Shown piece by piece: positions 1-5,322 of a stretch of 34,793 bases of DNA (within the stretch, counting starts at the first letter, position 1; every line of letters begins with the position of its first letter). The position numbers and the translations under genes were made by a program. Location of the stretch: positions 1-34,793 of the forward strand of contig JAEURI010000104.1 of assembly GCA_016789225.1 (NCBI GenBank). Direction: 5' to 3'. The DNA comes from Anaerolineales bacterium. Its GTDB lineage: Bacteria > Chloroflexota > Anaerolineae > Anaerolineales > Villigracilaceae. The notes beneath the pieces were generated by a model. The model worked only from the letters and a program-made list of their open reading frames with translations, made no database searches and had not been told where the DNA came from.

Positions 1-1558
1 CACCATATTTGGCCCTTAGCAAGAAAACCGCCATCTGCGCCCGCGTGGTCGCGGCCTGATCGGGACAGTAATTGCCATTACCGCACCCCGCCGTGATGCC
101 TTCTGAGGCGAATTGCTCGATCCATGCCGCCGCCCAGTGACCGATCAGCACATCTCCAAAGACGTTGCCCGTCGCCGCAGACGGAACGAACAATCTGCCG
201 TGGATGCCTTTCAGGATGAAGACCGCCATTTGTGCGCGCGTCACGGCCTGATCGGGACAATAGCTCAACGGATTGCTGCTACACCCGCCTGTGATGCCTG
301 CGCTGTACAGGCTCTCGATATACTGCCAGGCCCAGTAGTCAGCAGGCACGTCTACGAAGGTGGGCGAAAGTGTCCACTGGGCGTAGAGGGTGATGTCCGT
401 TGTGAAGTCGTAGCTCGCGCCATCTGCATAGGCCGTGCCCGAGCCGTTGGCGGCGGTGTTCCAACCTGAGAATGCATAGCCAGGGCGGGTGAAGGTGTTG
501 GTGTTGAGGGCCGTGACAGAACTGGCAGTTTGATCGTTCAGTGTGCCATACCCACCATTGGCGTTGAATGTGACGGTGTAGGTGAGGGAATATTTCATCA
601 CCGTGGCTTTGCCGGAGTGGGTCCAATCCTGATACGCTACATAGGGCATGTCATGGCTGTCGAAGGCAAGCGAGATGTAATAGGCGGCATTTACCCCCCT
701 CGCAGAGAAACCCGCCGAGCCGACCGTTTCCCAGGCGCTTCCATTGAACTTCACCACCGTGACATGGCCGGAGTTGCTTGCATCCGAAAACGCCACATAA
801 GGTATGTTATTGCTGTCGAGGGCAAGCGAGGGCTCGTATACCCCCCCCGCGGAGAAGCCTGCCAAGCCGACTATCTCCCAGGCGCTTCCATTGAACTTCA
901 TCACTGTGGCTTTGAGGGAGTTGGCCCAATCCCGATACGCCACATAGGGCGTGTTATTGCTGTCGAGGGCAAGCGAGGGATTATATGCCCTCCCCGCAGA
1001 GAAGCCAACTGTCTCCCAGTCACTTCCGTTGAACTTCATCACCGTGGTTTTGTCGAAATTGCCCTTATCCCGATACGCCAGATAGGGTGTGTTATTGCTG
1101 TCAAGGGCAAGCGAGAGAGTATATGCCTCTCCCGCAGAGAAACCCGCTGAGCCGACCGTCTCCCAGGCGCTTCCGTTGAACTTCATCACTGTGGCTTTGT
1201 AAGAGTTACCTCCATCCGCATACGCTACATAGGGTGCGTCATTGCTGTCGAGATCAAGCGAGGTGTAAGATACCCCCCCTGCAGAGAAGCCCGCCGGGCC
1301 GACTGTCTCCCAGGCGCTTCCATTGAACTTCATCACTGTGGCTTTGCCGGAGTTGCCTCCATCCGCATACGCCACATAGGGTGCGTCATTGCTGTCGAGA
1401 TCAAGCGAGGTGTAAGGTGCCCTACCCACGGAGAAGCCCGCCAAGCCGACCGTCTCCCAAATACCTGCGGCAGAAACGGAGGCGATTCCCAGGCTGCCGA
1501 AGATCAGCCCCAGCAGGGTCAAATGGACGATCATTTTATTCTTGAATGAAAATTTCAT
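1..1558 (-). CDS. Secreted repeat protein with SLH domains (C-terminus off the window)
   Basis: Open reading frame running off the left edge; 519 codons are visible. It starts at the ATG at 1558 behind a clear AAGGAG site. The first ~32 residues are a signal peptide (basic start, then MIVHLTLLGLIFGSLGIASV, AxA-like end). Six tandem ~49-residue units follow, each with WETVG, GFSAG, SLALDSNNTPYVAY and TVMKFNGSA. Next is one Listeria/Bacteroides-type repeat (VTFNANGG ... PGYAFSGWNT ... YAQW, Flg_new-like). Two SLH repeats come last (FVDVPADYWAWQYIESLY..GIT, then a VTRAQMAVFIL-type end), each with a Cys pair (GGCSSNPLSYC, AGCGNGNYC). SLH domains normally bind cell-wall polymers, so this is probably a surface-anchored protein. 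The 49-residue units look like beta-propeller blades (inference). Ligand and role are unknown; a third SLH repeat may lie outside the window. Confidence 0.85.
   Translation of the reverse strand, partial: MKFSFKNKMIVHLTLLGLIFGSLGIASVSAAGIWETVGLAGFSVGRAPYTSLDLDSNDAPYVAYADGGNSGKATVMKFNGSAWETVGPAGFSAGGVSYTSLDLDSNDAPYVAYADGGNSYKATVMKFNGSAWETVGSAGFSAGEAYTLSLALDSNNTPYLAYRDKGNFDKTTVMKFNGSDWETVGFSAGRAYNPSLALDSNNTPYVAYRDWANSLKATVMKFNGSAWEIVGLAGFSAGGVYEPSLALDSNNIPYVAFSDASNSGHVTVVKFNGSAWETVGSAGFSARGVNAAYYISLAFDSHDMPYVAYQDWTHSGKATVMKYSLTYTVTFNANGGYGTLNDQTASSVTALNTNTFTRPGYAFSGWNTAANGSGTAYADGASYDFTTDITLYAQWTLSPTFVDVPADYWAWQYIESLYSAGITGGCSSNPLSYCPDQAVTRAQMAVFILKGIHGRLFVPSAATGNVFGDVLIGHWAAAWIEQFASEGITAGCGNGNYCPDQAATTRAQMAVFLLRAKYG
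588..1461 (-). repeat. Six ~147-bp tandem repeats inside the secreted protein gene
   Basis: In-frame tandem DNA repeat with a period of about 147 bp (49 codons). The plus strand shows recurring blocks such as gtctcccaggcgcttcc and ttgaacttcatcac. The units nearest the gene start (about 1170-1460) are almost identical. Unit 4 is shorter by three residues and unit 6 is longer. The high DNA identity suggests recent duplication or gene conversion. Confidence 0.85.
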
Positions 1559-1818
1559 TTTTTCTCCTTTTAGGAATTCATCCAAAGAAACGCGCCCAAA
1601 ACCCCTTATGTCAAAAGTTCGCCCGGAATTTTGAGTGGCAATTGTTCGTATACAGGGTATTCATTAGAACGGGGAAAATGTTTTTGGTGTGTTCCTTCTG
1701 TAAAGGGTGTTTTTATACAAAGAAAACAAACAAAGCTGAGAACATTACGTGTGTTGACGCGTGCGAGCACACAGGAACATGATCTGAATTTATTTTATAC
1801 CACCCGATTCTTTTTTAC
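1559..1818. other. AT-rich spacer upstream of the secreted protein
   Basis: No convincing gene. The short plus-strand reading frames here lack ribosome sites and resemble no family I know. The promoter of the secreted protein must lie here. A TTGACA element on the minus strand (1609-1614) is the best -35 candidate, but no good -10 follows at the usual distance. The region is visibly more AT-rich than the genes on either side. Confidence 0.5.
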
Positions 1819-1910
1819 ATTAGACTTTATCGGTAATAAGGTTTGGGCATGAAAAACACCTATTTTCAAGGGCTTTTCCCATCAAGTTGCTATTTCCGAT
1901 AAAGTCTAAT
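1819..1910. repeat. 92-bp element bounded by a perfect 15-bp inverted repeat
   Basis: ATTAGACTTTATCGG at 1819-1833 is matched exactly in inverse at 1896-1910. Allowing one mismatch extends the match to 20 bp (1819-1838 and 1891-1910). About 52-62 nt of non-symmetric sequence lie between. No coding capacity and no obvious target-site duplication flank it. It could be a small non-autonomous mobile element, paired recombinase sites, or a regulatory hairpin. Confidence 0.6.
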
Positions 1911-1913
1911 AGA

Positions 1914-1947
1914 TAAAAAGCATCCGAAGCCATTGCGACTCCGGATG
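1914..1947 (-). terminator. Intrinsic terminator of the ABC exporter operon
   Basis: On the minus strand CATCCG and CGGATG (plus 1921-1926 and 1942-1947) pair, with two more pairs inside after a mismatch, followed by CTTTTTAT. It lies about 45 nt past the stop codon of the last permease gene. Confidence 0.7.
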
Positions 1948-1990
1948 TTTTCCTGTCCCATTTCTCGTTACTACTTCCTAGCTCATTCCT

Positions 1991-2776
1991 CTACGCCGAA
2001 GCGCCGGAATAATTCTTCAGGCCGATGCTCCATACCACGCGGGCAACAACAAAGAGAAAAACAGTCAGGGCGAGGGCTCCTAGCCAGGTTTGCAGGGTCA
2101 GGCGTCCGGTTAGGGCGGAGGCGGGCACCGTCACAGCGAAAGCCACGGGGACGAGAAAGGTCAGGCCGTAGCGCAGCCAGTTGGGGTAAATATCCACAGG
2201 CCAGCGACCGGCGGCATATAGCCCTTCAAAGAGGTTGGCGATCTCATTCACGCGCACGAACCAAAAAGCAGTGGAGGTAACGATGAGCCAAAAACTATAG
2301 ACCATCACCGCGCCCATGAAGAGCGCCGAAAGAAAACCGAGTACAGCCCAAACATCCAAGAGCCAGCCCAGCTGCGAGAGTGCCACGCCGAGCACGATCA
2401 GCCCGACGACCACATCGGTATTTTGCCACAGGCGAAACTCACGCACGCTAACAAAGAGCTGTGCATCGGCAGGTTTAGTGAGGGCGTAATCCAACGTGCC
2501 CTCGCGGATCTCCTCCATGAGCCGCTCCATGTTCGGCTGAATGGCGGCGCGTATCAGGCCACCCGTCATGGTGAACACGCCCATCACAGCCAGAAGCTCG
2601 GCCTTGTTCCAGCCGCCGAGGTCTGTGGTTTGTGAAAAGACAAGATTCAAACCAACCAGGCCCGTGCCGAGCGCAATGAAGGTTTGCAAGAGTTGAATAT
2701 AAAGATTGGCGCGGTATTGGAATTCATTCATCACTCCAATGCGCAAGTGACTAAATGCCAGGCGAAGTCCGTGCAT
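1991..2776 (-). CDS. ABC-2 type transporter permease, second permease subunit (COG3694-like)
   Basis: 261-residue integral membrane protein with about six hydrophobic segments. It opens RLAFSHLRIGVMNEFQYRAN, typical of the ABC2_membrane_6 (DUF990) permease family. The start is the ATG at 2776, one base after the upstream permease stop and behind GGGAGG; an in-frame codon at 2812 lies inside the upstream gene and lacks this site. It is the last gene of a three-gene exporter operon (ATPase, permease, permease). The two different permeases presumably form a heterodimeric channel energised by the ATPase encoded first. The substrate is not evident: relatives are annotated as uncharacterised transport systems, and drug or lipid export is only a guess. 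Confidence 0.88.
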   Translation of the reverse strand: MHGLRLAFSHLRIGVMNEFQYRANLYIQLLQTFIALGTGLVGLNLVFSQTTDLGGWNKAELLAVMGVFTMTGGLIRAAIQPNMERLMEEIREGTLDYALTKPADAQLFVSVREFRLWQNTDVVVGLIVLGVALSQLGWLLDVWAVLGFLSALFMGAVMVYSFWLIVTSTAFWFVRVNEIANLFEGLYAAGRWPVDIYPNWLRYGLTFLVPVAFAVTVPASALTGRLTLQTWLGALALTVFLFVVARVVWSIGLKNYSGASA

Positions 2777-2777
2777 G

Positions 2778-3581
2778 TTAACCTCCCACCGCCGAGAATT
2801 GGCGGATGGCAAACTTCCAAACGATACTCACCACCAGCGCACCAAAGACGATCCACGCGATCTGCATGCCCAACCCAAGGAATAGGTCGTTCACGGACAT
2901 GTTCCCTGTCAACGTTTCGATGGGAAACCCAAACGCCCAGCGAAAGGGGAAGAACCACGCCGCACGCTGCACCCAGTCTGGCATCAGCGAAAGAGGCACG
3001 AGGCGCCCCGAAAGAATCAGCTCGGCGGCAAAATACAACTCGAACAGCGCACTGACGCGCGTCGTCCAAAATGTGACCATGCCCAAAATGGAAAGGGTCA
3101 TGGTGCGAATCAGATAGGCGAACCAGATCGCAAAAAAGAAAACCACGCCTTGCAAAAAAGTGGGATGCAAATCTGGCTTGAAGAAGAACGAGAGCGCCAA
3201 CGCCAGAGGAATCCATAAGATGATGGTGACCACCTTCCACCCGGCGAAGAAAGCCACATCGTTATGCAAAGGGTGGATGGGGCGCATCAGACTCATCGAC
3301 AGTTGTCCCTGCCGAATGCGCCATTCCCACCCGTAGGGTGTGAAGACCACGTTCATGCTACGCACGAGAGTCCACACAATGTAGTAGGCGGCGAAGGCAG
3401 CAGGCGTATACCCGCCAATGGTGCCGCCCTGTTGGGTTGCGACAGCAGACCAGACCACCATGTAGATAACCGGCTCCGCGACCATGCCGATCATATAAAA
3501 GTAATTGGCAATTGGATATTGCCACTGCTCCATGATGGCGAGTTTGATGGAGGTGATATAAAAGTCGATATATCGTTTCAT
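2778..3581 (-). CDS. ABC-2 type transporter permease, first permease subunit (COG4587-like)
   Basis: 267-residue membrane protein with about six hydrophobic helices. The N-terminus (MKRYIDFYITSIKLAIMEQW) and the PxxWxxAAWFFPFRWAFGFP region fit the COG4587/DUF990-type permeases, the usual partner of the COG4586 ATPase and COG3694 permease. Its ATG overlaps the ATPase stop codon by four bases (ATGA), indicating translational coupling, and the next permease begins one base after its stop. Role: half of the membrane channel of an ABC exporter. Substrate unknown. Confidence 0.88.
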   Translation of the reverse strand: MKRYIDFYITSIKLAIMEQWQYPIANYFYMIGMVAEPVIYMVVWSAVATQQGGTIGGYTPAAFAAYYIVWTLVRSMNVVFTPYGWEWRIRQGQLSMSLMRPIHPLHNDVAFFAGWKVVTIILWIPLALALSFFFKPDLHPTFLQGVVFFFAIWFAYLIRTMTLSILGMVTFWTTRVSALFELYFAAELILSGRLVPLSLMPDWVQRAAWFFPFRWAFGFPIETLTGNMSVNDLFLGLGMQIAWIVFGALVVSIVWKFAIRQFSAVGG

Positions 3582-4564
3582 TCCATCGCTTCCTTTTTAA
3601 CCGAGAAGACGGATTCGATCACATCTTCGATGGGTGTCGCTTCGACGGTCAGATCATCCACGGCAAGGTCGTTGAGCAGGCTCGACGTAACCGCCGAGGT
3701 CTTGGCCTTGGGCACGCGCATCACCACACGAGAACCGTCCACAGAAACCACATCGCCATATGAACTAAAGTCCTGAGTGGGGTCGTCAATGTTGAAGCCA
3801 ACCGTCTTGAAGGCAGAGAACTTTTCCACTAAAGCGGCGAGGTCGCCATCGAAGAGCAATTGTCCGTGATGGATGACGATGACGCGCTTGCAGAGAGCTT
3901 CCACATCCGCCATGTAGTGACTGGTGAGCAGAACCGTCGCACCGTAACGTTTGTTGTACTCGGCAATGAAGGTGCGGATGCGCTTCTGCATGGTCACATC
4001 CAGGCCGAGAGTAGGCTCATCCAAAAAGAGGATCTTCGGCTTGTGCAATAACGCTCCGATGATCTCCATTTTCATGCGCTCGCCCAGGGAGAGGTTGCGC
4101 ACGGGTTTCTTGACCAGGTCTTTTACATCCAGAATTTCGATGAATTCATCACGGGTGCGCTTGAACTCGTCGGTCGGGATGCCGTATACAGCGCGTTGCA
4201 AGTCAAAGGAGTCGAGGGCGGGCAAGTCCCAGGAAAGCTGGTTGCGGTTGCCCATCACCAGGGTGATCTGTCGCAGGTAATCGTGTGCGCGTTTGGCAGG
4301 TTCGTACCCCAGCACGGAAACGCTTCCCGCGGTGGGGTGCAAAAGTCCGCTCAACATTTTGAGGGTGGTCGTCTTACCCGCTCCATTCGGGCCGAGGAAG
4401 CCAACTACTTCGCCGGGCTGGATGTCGAACGAAATTCCATCCACGGCTTTGACGTTTCGATAGGTGCGTTTGAAGAGTCCCTTGGCAGCGGCTTTAAGAC
4501 CGGCTTCGCGTTCGGGGACTTGGTAATGTTTTGCCAGTTTCGAGATCGAAATGACAGAGGGCAT
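3578..4564 (-). CDS. ABC transporter ATP-binding protein (COG4586-like)
   Basis: 328 residues. Walker A is GPNGAGKT at ~59-66, the signature LSLGE at ~158-162, Walker B ILFLDEP at ~178-184, and the switch histidine is in LTSHYMAD at ~216. The C-terminal ~100 residues are the extra domain seen in DrrA/NatA-like exporter ATPases. The start at 4564 is preferred because AGGAG lies seven bases upstream; a longer frame reaching 4642 runs into the leader terminator. It is the first gene of the exporter operon and overlaps the next permease by four bases. Expression is probably controlled by the upstream leader with its small peptide gene and terminator (4625-4767). Confidence 0.93.
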   Translation of the reverse strand: MPSVISISKLAKHYQVPEREAGLKAAAKGLFKRTYRNVKAVDGISFDIQPGEVVGFLGPNGAGKTTTLKMLSGLLHPTAGSVSVLGYEPAKRAHDYLRQITLVMGNRNQLSWDLPALDSFDLQRAVYGIPTDEFKRTRDEFIEILDVKDLVKKPVRNLSLGERMKMEIIGALLHKPKILFLDEPTLGLDVTMQKRIRTFIAEYNKRYGATVLLTSHYMADVEALCKRVIVIHHGQLLFDGDLAALVEKFSAFKTVGFNIDDPTQDFSSYGDVVSVDGSRVVMRVPKAKTSAVTSSLLNDLAVDDLTVEATPIEDVIESVFSVKKEAME

Positions 4565-4624
4565 GAAAATACTCCTGATTTGTTGTAGATTGCTTGTTTC
4601 GATACCAGTTTCCGCCCAGTGGCA

Positions 4625-4656
4625 ATAAAAACCGCAGGGCATCAGCGCTCCTGCGG
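4625..4656 (-). terminator. Terminator in the ABC operon leader (attenuator candidate)
   Basis: On the minus strand CCGCAGG and CCTGCGG (plus 4650-4656 and 4632-4638) form a perfect seven-pair stem with an 11-nt loop, followed at once by TTTTTATT. It lies between a 20-codon reading frame and the ATPase start, so it can end transcripts before the exporter genes. The 5' arm can instead pair with CCTGTGG inside the peptide gene (plus 4690-4696). Confidence 0.8.
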
Positions 4657-4676
4657 CAAGGTTTCAGGAAAGGTAA

Positions 4677-4739
4677 TTACCCAACCAGTCCACAGGGAGG
4701 CACGCAAAGATCCATTGAATTGTTCATGACGATAGACAT
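4677..4739 (-). CDS. 20-residue leader peptide or small protein before the ABC exporter
   Basis: ATG at 4739, stop TAA at 4677-4679, 20 residues (starts MSIVMNNSMD, ends DLCVPPCGLVG). It has one of the strongest ribosome sites in the window: AAAGGAGG eight bases before the ATG. The Pro-Pro pair between two Cys residues could slow ribosomes. The frame is open further upstream, but only this ATG has the site. It is followed 20 nt later by an intrinsic terminator, then by the exporter operon. The simplest reading is a leader peptide whose translation controls read-through (inference). An independent small secreted or metal-binding peptide is possible. I recognise no family. Confidence 0.6.
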   Translation of the reverse strand: MSIVMNNSMDLCVPPCGLVG

Positions 4740-4773
4740 TCGAAGTACCTCCTTTCCGATTAGAATTATGCCG

Positions 4774-4802
4774 AGTTTATCATATTCAAAATCGACATGC
4801 AA
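4774..4802 (-). promoter_or_regulatory. Predicted promoter of the leader peptide and ABC exporter operon
   Basis: Minus strand TTGCAT (plus 4797-4802), a 17-base spacer, then TAAACT (plus 4774-4779). Transcription would start near 4767, about 28 nt before the small peptide ATG. Confidence 0.5.
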
Positions 4803-4821
4803 GAAGGGAATCGAAACAGCC

Positions 4822-5322
4822 ATGATAAAACAGGAACTTGAACAGGAATTGGAAGAAACCCATCGCCGTTTCATTGCCCTAGTGGAATCCATTCCCGAGG
4901 CGGATTACTCCCTCTCCACCGATAACCCTGCCTGGACGGTAGGCGATATTCTCTTTCATATTACATTGGGTCCGCGGGCAATTGCTTTGGAGGCGTGGAT
5001 GATCGTCTATGCGCGGGCTTGGTTTCAATTTGGGATGCGGCATTTTCCAAGCGGGTTGTTCAACCGGGTCAATGCCTGGTTTGGGCAGGGACGGGAGCGA
5101 ATCAGCCGTCAGGGTTTGCTCAGGGCTTATGGGAAGGCGCACGCAGTCATCCGGTCCAGGTTGAGGCGGACGCGAGAGGATGACCTAGGTAAAATGGTGG
5201 TGTATCCGCCGGATTTTGTCTCCGAATTGACAGGGGAAGTCACGGTCGAGCGTCTTTTCCGGTATGTCACCGGGCATTTTGAGGTGCATGAAAGGCAGTT
5301 AAAACGAGGATTTGAGCGGTAA
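4822..5322 (+). CDS. DinB-like four-helix-bundle protein
   Basis: 166 residues, mostly helical. Three histidines sit where DinB/MDMPI-type proteins bind a metal: H46 (DILFHI) and H152/H156 (GHFEVHERQL). The phrase NPAWTVGDILFHI near residue 35-47 matches the usual W-x-x-x-x-L-x-H opening. Family members are metal-dependent thiol transferases or proteins of unknown function; the substrate here cannot be read from the sequence. The start at 4822 is chosen because the protein begins cleanly with a charged helix. The ribosome site is weak (AAGGG about 12 nt upstream). A longer frame to 4594 would cross the divergent leader region and is unlikely. Confidence 0.75.
   Translation: MIKQELEQELEETHRRFIALVESIPEADYSLSTDNPAWTVGDILFHITLGPRAIALEAWMIVYARAWFQFGMRHFPSGLFNRVNAWFGQGRERISRQGLLRAYGKAHAVIRSRLRRTREDDLGKMVVYPPDFVSELTGEVTVERLFRYVTGHFEVHERQLKRGFER

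Follow-up and report, generated by a model that had tools for sequence, protein, structure and literature searches.

In the trp and his leaders of Enterobacteria the position of the ribosome is read through the pairing of RNA segments 1:2, 2:3 and 3:4. Here we describe a leader family represented in a stretch of 34,793 nucleotides from an Anaerolineales bacterium (the whole stretch is called the window in the following), which uses the same segment logic but has no control codons. For the bmrB leader of bmrCD in Bacillus subtilis, the available part of the report describes induction by ribosome-targeting antibiotics and a requirement for leader translation (PMC4191407). As far as described there, bmrB and the present family have in common a short leader ORF, a terminator, a predicted antiterminator and anti-antiterminator and a multidrug ABC exporter downstream. 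In contrast, the bmrB terminator lies inside the bmrB frame, whereas here it is placed past the stop codon and segment 1 is the Shine-Dalgarno site; bmrCD is also a transporter of another type than the exporter of the window (PMC4191407). In the vmlR leader of B. subtilis an antibiotic-stalled ribosome blocks the anti-antiterminator, according to the part of the report at hand (PMC9226507). Anti-antiterminator, antiterminator and terminator are shared with our family, but the vmlR uORF has three codons, its Shine-Dalgarno site is single-stranded before SL-1 while here it provides half of the first helix, and an extra hairpin, which our family lacks, hides the vmlR ribosome site (PMC9226507). 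The Listeria rli80/hflXr leader, from the accessible text, is likewise an attenuator, drug-responsive and with an anti-antiterminator region that is overlain by an ORF of 14 codons; it has an RLR arrest motif, whereas the peptides of the present family are neutral and none is conserved (PMC6310831). The uORF of Escherichia coli topAI senses several antibiotic classes via another route, as stated in the available part of that work (PMC12121999).

The literature searched did not describe a leader-peptide attenuator from Chloroflexota, and no paper came up for transcription attenuation combined either with Anaerolineae or with both Chloroflexi and leader peptide. The main text of a premature-terminator screen, in the part available, contains no word starting with Chloroflex (PMC2965389). 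A motif Chloroflexi-1 is listed with an Rfam accession in the accessible part of PMC2864571; Rfam showed no match to it in the window or in six related loci. Rfam overall gave 0 matches at gathering score in the window, and at a loose threshold all matches in the six related loci were far below gathering scores and belonged mostly to microRNA families. Two of them overlapped leaders and were taken as chance: Listeria rli61 in L148, which scored 22.7 bits where gathering requires 50 (E 4.4), and a viral packaging signal in L096 (E 3.5).

A first-pass annotation of the window had proposed that a peptide-encoding attenuator precedes an ABC exporter operon and that the ribosome position selects between terminator and antiterminator. 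It had named a promoter, a 20-codon ORF with a Shine-Dalgarno site, a stem followed by a T run and the exporter genes. All of these elements are present on the minus strand, and the general proposal is backed by the conservation described below. The features are:

4797..4802, minus strand: promoter -35 element TTGCAT, read from the sequence
4774..4779, minus strand: promoter -10 element TAAACT with TGA just before it, spacer of 17 nt, read from the sequence
4748..4755, minus strand: leader Shine-Dalgarno site AAAGGAGG, its seven leading bases identical throughout alignment A2 (21 leaders)
4745..4752, minus strand: segment 1 GGAGGUAC, overlapping the Shine-Dalgarno site, partner of segment 2 (anti-antiterminator 1:2)
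4677..4739, minus strand: leader ORF MSIVMNNSMDLCVPPCGLVG, 20 codons plus stop, frame kept in the family
4696..4705, minus strand: segment 2 GCGUGCCUCC, anti-Shine-Dalgarno stretch lying in frame over codons 12-15, partner of segment 1 or 3
4645..4652, minus strand: segment 3 AGGAGCGC, last part of the terminator 5' arm together with the loop, partner of segment 2 (antiterminator 2:3)
4624..4656, minus strand: intrinsic terminator (CCGCAGG 4656-4650, CCUGCGG 4638-4632, U run 4631-4627)
3578..4564, minus strand: gene 1, ABC exporter ATPase (MPSV...), PF00005; best NCBIfam match drrA, below cut-off
2778..3581, minus strand: gene 2, ABC-2 permease, PF06182 ABC2_membrane_6
1991..2812, minus strand: gene 3, ABC-2 permease, PF06182 ABC2_membrane_6

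The leader stop codon is separated by 20 nt from the terminator stem, of which the 5' arm together with the loop can also pair with segment 2. A simple consensus scan of the window listed neither the TTGCAT/TAAACT promoter nor the CCGCAGG terminator, which by our own reading of the scan rules is because the -35 element agrees with the consensus at 3 of 6 bases and the loop is longer than the scan allows. The RNA 4767-4560, whose folding had been proposed as a check in the first-pass annotation, was more stable than most shuffled sequences (z -2.18, 2 of 200 as good), and in its predicted fold the Shine-Dalgarno site is paired with codons 12-15 while the terminator hairpin is present. The nearest named relatives of the exporter ATPase come from Chloroflexi/Anaerolineae MAGs. 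A divergent gene of the DinB superfamily (PF12867, window 4594-5322, plus strand) has the intergenic region in common with the leader, and beyond it rpsO-, pnp- and release-factor-3-like ORFs follow (named by eye).

To compare the leader among relatives we searched with the exporter ATPase and obtained 80 exporter loci. A leader was found upstream at 17 of them (L016-L022 and L024-L033; ATPase identity 76-91%). For the other 63 loci the wider covariance model R2 gave no match at E up to 1; among these, L023, L038 and L066 come without upstream sequence and L065 with only 162 nt, and the remaining 59, with an ATPase identity of at most 72%, had no leader match. The leaders of the 17 loci, the window and three from whole genomes form alignment A2 (21 leaders). 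Within it the peptides differ freely in their N-terminal part (e.g. MSIVMNNSMDL, MAGFIKKDVFI, MKTYHYILKST), and segment 2, GCGUGCCUCC, is retained with the lineage variants GUACCUCC, GUAUCUCC and GCGCCUUC.

Helix 1:2 (GGAGGUAC with GUGCCUCC) is paired in 97.0% of the cells of A2 and has both-side changes at 3 pairs. The pairing of GCCUCC in codons 13-15 with the ribosome site, one of the rival structures in the first-pass annotation, is thus conserved and covarying in the 21 leaders. Helix 2:3, which combines GCGUGCCU (codons 12-14, 4705-4698) with 4652-4645, is paired in 98.8% of the cells. Both-side changes occur in 18 cells compared to 5.0 in shuffles, and the covariation score of 0.413 is above that of shuffled (0.250) and slid (at most 0.185) alignments. 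Stricter counts were about those of shuffles: 3 pairs had double changes against 1.9 (124 of 500 shuffles as high), and 8 pair types occurred against 8.3. In the wider set A4 the inner six pairs of 2:3 provided a weaker result, with a score of 0.268 versus 0.234 for shuffles (0/500) and 15 double-change cells versus 7.0 (1/500), while double-change pairs (3 versus 2.5) and pair types (9 versus 8.7) were not above shuffles. Sliding A4 by +2 gave 21 double-change cells, yet just 63.8% of the cells were then paired. The terminator pairs 3:4 are invariant in A2; in A4 all 7 of them have both-side changes and 99.6% of cells are paired, A4 being fitted to the terminator helix. More generally, helices 1:2 and 3:4 guided the fitting of A3 and A4, such that counts for those two helices are biased in their favour. 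Overall the comparative evidence supports all three helices, which are mutually exclusive.

The window itself carries one of the two imperfect 2:3 helices in A2, with one G.A mismatch; the other is found in L030. Its 2:3 duplex (-10.6 kcal/mol) is weaker than that of most leaders and no better than with shuffled segments (z 0.03). The antiterminator that had been read in the window, CCUGUGG in codons 15-17 with CCGCAGG, is complete in only 3 of the 21 leaders, and the conserved one uses codons 12-14 instead; the former pairing might aid the window, where the conserved 2:3 has its mismatch. A further proposed pairing, CCUUUCC with GGAAAGG, was scored at six of its seven pairs, and all six are formed in a single leader of the 21, that of the window.

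For searches across genomes we used a covariance model (R1) of helices 1:2 and 3:4. Modelled columns include the ATG and leave the promoter outside, and model E-values are rough. In the genome of the window R1 found the window's leader (E 4e-24) and one weak match on C138 (E 0.83). In the family 87 of 152 genomes, from 14 of 26 genera, had a match at E up to 0.01, often with two and at most with four leaders per genome. With R2, 77 of 396 genomes of the class sample (47 of 222 genera) matched at E up to 0.003, and of the 20 matching genomes among 301 in the phylum sample 19 were inside the class and one outside (G788). We analysed 144 distinct leaders, which are not a random sample: 6 of 97 class-search matches, L188 and many family-search matches lie outside this set.

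A promoter of the form TTGNNN-16..18-TANNNT stands upstream of 127 of the 144 leaders, with 8.4 expected after shuffling. The leader ORF starts with ATG in 142 cases and with GTG in one, one leader having no ORF; its median length is 21 codons, and the stop codon precedes the terminator by a median of 24 nt (5-95% range 18-40). In 110 of 115 non-redundant leaders the frame of the first ATG closes between segment 2 and the terminator, compared to 25% of shuffles. In the other five the stop comes before segment 2 (three) or an ATG is absent (two). For L022 the script took an earlier ATG (MKWHPTI), and by reading the next ATG gives MAPNNLDFKFCVSPGCLDI. Judged from sequence comparison, the leader is genuine and part of a conserved family. 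L223, L152 and L226 may perhaps stand outside of it.

Over 114 leaders 3 stop codons were counted in frame 0, 142 in frame +1 and 57 in frame +2. In 39 close pairs of 20-codon leaders, which are not mutually independent, dN/dS was 0.93 at codons 2-10 and 1.21 at codons 16-20, while codons 12-15 evolved slowly even at silent sites (pS 0.087 versus 0.381). The scarcity of in-frame stops and the neutral dN/dS indicate that the family retains the frame while the peptide drifts, except for what the RNA demands.

This drift bears on the idea of a classic amino-acid attenuator, in which the ribosome halts at control codons once a particular charged tRNA runs low. Its general RNA logic is alike, and L223, a leader rich in Leu codons, is located before a leucyl-tRNA synthetase gene. 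However, four or more of one residue at codons 2-11 were found in 5 of 112 leaders against 6.2% of random draws, and codons 2-10 evolve neutrally. The 1:2 pairing of L223 is moreover poor (-10.4), for which reason it is perhaps a separate device. We consider a classic amino-acid attenuator distinctly unlikely.

The antiterminator was further examined by exchanging segments between the 115 non-redundant leaders. Segment 2 paired with its own segment 3 at -16.2 kcal/mol and with that of others at -13.7 kcal/mol, none of 5000 permutations being as good; the own 2:3 pairing beat the cross median in 93 of the 115 and had a z below -2 against shuffled segments 3 in 67. The 64 leaders outside model training behaved alike (-16.6 versus -14.1, 0/5000; 50 of 64 beating the cross median), and they carried the promoter in 54 cases versus 3.2 expected and the ORF in 62. 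The corresponding test for 1:2 is partly circular, as segment 2 was picked for pairing well with the segment 1 of the same leader, while the 2:3 test is not.

Such a specific fit is hard to reconcile with a short regulatory RNA or translation switch that has no conditional terminator and in which 2:3 would be a by-product of the likeness of segment 3 to the Shine-Dalgarno site. Segment 3 (GCAGGUGCGC) is similar to segment 1 (GGAGGUAC), and the stricter covariation counts of 2:3, which did not exceed shuffles, agree with such an origin. Against it, segment 3 prefers the segment 2 of its own leader to those of other leaders, and in 137 of 144 leaders the start of a same-strand ORF of at least 90 aa lies no more than 300 nt away (a plain count with no control). 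We regard this possibility as most unlikely. The comparisons thus provide good support for a conserved transcription attenuator.

We then folded the RNA up to the terminator loop for 70 leaders of 18-22 codons while masking the ribosome, assuming a footprint of 12 nt behind and 15 nt ahead of the first base of the P-site codon. When no pairing past the ribosome was permitted, 2:3 had about 9 bp with the P-site at codons 1-7, 7.2 at codon 8, 5.2 at codon 9, 3.1 at codon 10 and 0.7 at codon 12, and was near zero beyond. When such pairing was allowed, 2:3 had 7.9-8.7 bp at codons 1-3 and faded from codon 4; at codon 20 it was back to 3.0 bp and present in a fraction of 0.36 of the leaders. Without ribosome the mean was 4.3 bp for 2:3 and 5.3 bp for 1:2, and the equilibrium fold contained at least 5 bp of 2:3 in a fraction of 0.46 of the 70 leaders. 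Since 2:3 is present at equilibrium without ribosome, an off state of the naked RNA requires that 1:2 forms first, which the order of transcription permits. The naked RNA of the window has 9.9 bp of 1:2 and no 2:3, and a ribosome at codons 1-3 gives 5 or 7 bp of 2:3.

From these folding results an early-slowed ribosome is predicted to turn the operon on, while a ribosome at the Pro-Pro of codons 14-15 is predicted to turn it off, the reverse of what a Pro-Pro sensor would do. In the mechanism that we propose, helix 1:2 would form first in the naked leader RNA and leave the terminator 3:4 free, such that transcription ends there. If a ribosome has initiated and is held at about codons 1-8, it would cover or isolate segment 1 and keep segment 2 bare. 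Bare segment 2 would then capture the terminator 5' arm and loop (2:3), and the polymerase would read through into the exporter. A ribosome running on to codons 10-20 would cover segment 2, so that the terminator forms. The sensed signal would thus be a slowing of early elongation, whatever the peptide, for example by elongation inhibitors, rather than a single amino acid or an arrest sequence. We think it likely that the ribosome position early in the leader switches the operon on, in an attenuator of the trp/BmrB kind with the ribosome-binding site of the leader as segment 1. Sequence comparison establishes the promoter, the ORF, the terminator, the three competing helices and the neutrality of the peptide, whereas translation of the ORF, the direction of the switch, the order of folding and the inducer are all points that we infer. 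Elongation inhibitors are plausible, and somewhat more probable than not, as natural inducer given the gene set and the neutral peptide.

The prediction for codons 14-15 is relevant to the Pro-Pro pair flanked by Cys, which had been suggested as a possible pause site. A related explanation is an erm-type leader, in which the nascent chain, perhaps through Cys-Val-Pro-Pro-Cys, stalls the ribosome in presence of a drug. Among 114 non-redundant leaders, 83 have the CCU core of segment 2 in the Pro frame, 18 and 7 have it in one or the other of the remaining frames, and 6 could not be placed. The bias is as this explanation would have it, but shared ancestry could cause it as well. Codons 2-10 and 16-20 are neutral and hold no conserved arrest sequence, PP is absent in 65 of 115 leaders, and a ribosome stalled at codons 13-15 should, from the folding, hide segment 2 and turn the operon off. 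An erm-type arrest peptide therefore appears unlikely. Pro-Pro as the sensor fares no better, as PP occurs in 50 of the 115 leaders and a stall there is predicted to favour termination; its occurrence in the peptides results largely from the CCUCC sequence of the RNA.

For the 144 leaders the downstream genes were assigned with Pfam and NCBIfam on representatives only and for the rest by BLAST cluster. The commonest class is the RIO-type kinase, which comes next in 52 leaders and in 3 more after an intervening SnoaL-like gene. Exporter ATPases of the window type and membrane-ATPase fusion ABC exporters follow 21 leaders each. Another ABC ATPase was assigned in 8 cases, of which at least L019, L031 and L033 are of the window exporter type and L236 resembles a cut-off fusion exporter. 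GNAT genes follow 13 leaders (L209 matching under the Pfam cut-offs) and, with uncertainty, 2 more; RsgA GTPase was found in 10, MFS in 3 and Xaa-Pro aminopeptidase in 3. An alpha/beta hydrolase, TetR, a methyltransferase and LeuRS occur once each, and 4 are unresolved; L113 and L140 have no gene in the stretch examined, and L205 and L226 no clear gene call. No erm or ABC-F gene was among the downstream genes assigned. The three Xaa-Pro aminopeptidase leaders (L238, L239 and L245) come from three genomes, and a link of this gene to translation stress is not obvious.

RIO kinases, ABC exporters, GNAT and RsgA behind most leaders suggest a translation-stress regulon. We lean slightly towards a regulon of this type throughout Anaerolineae, in which one recurring attenuator with the ribosome-binding site as segment 1 would report on early elongation in a generic way and could be adopted by any gene. 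If so, bacterial RIO kinases and RsgA would belong to one response with drug exporters and acetyltransferases. To our knowledge the role of bacterial RIO kinases is open, and the literature that we found, judged by title or the beginning of the abstract, does not address it. If the mechanism holds, the leader would offer a testable handle on these kinases, as no other gene follows so many of the leaders analysed, and in addition a cheap listing of translation-stress genes in uncultured bacteria. A Shine-Dalgarno site as first switch segment combined with neutral codons would make a simple generic sensor of slow elongation.

Several individual copies deserve mention. The weak match on C138 in the genome of the window (G000; L097) comprises a leader at 933-1063 and a gene at 1082-2404, an MFS gene (PF07690) starting 20-odd nt downstream. 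It has an 18-codon ORF, MSKMGVSFYSRACLPVSD, behind a poor ribosome site, and a strong terminator; its 2:3 duplex reaches -19.5 kcal/mol (1 of 500 shuffles as good) and its 1:2 duplex -11.2 (27 of 500). L097 is likely a diverged second leader of this genome. On C99 of the same genome (L252) a RIO gene with 73% identity is located near the end of a stretch that starts at the terminator-like GCGGTTTTTTT; a further leader copy was probably lost here, as though the assembly had cut inside such a terminator.

L184 (G788, 1501-1667), the sole match outside the class in the phylum sample, precedes a GNAT-like gene (in a BLAST cluster with L195) and has an unusual ribosome site, GGACGCAC, that is matched by GUGCGUCC. 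In G500 the leader L223 (C105, 201-372), a weaker model match, lies ahead of the leucyl-tRNA synthetase gene at 566-3022. Its leucine-rich peptide reads MINMVVNQTLRSLCGLLLGSRVGLRCWGLPH, so this leader may have arisen separately as a genuine leucine attenuator. In L134/L170 (G496) segment 2 is wholly different, AAUACACCUCC, and matches both the Shine-Dalgarno region GGAGGUGUAUU and the terminator AGGUGUAUU; by its base pairing this is a natural compensatory variant. L139 (G288), a relative of L134/L170, follows the same plan with a weaker 2:3.
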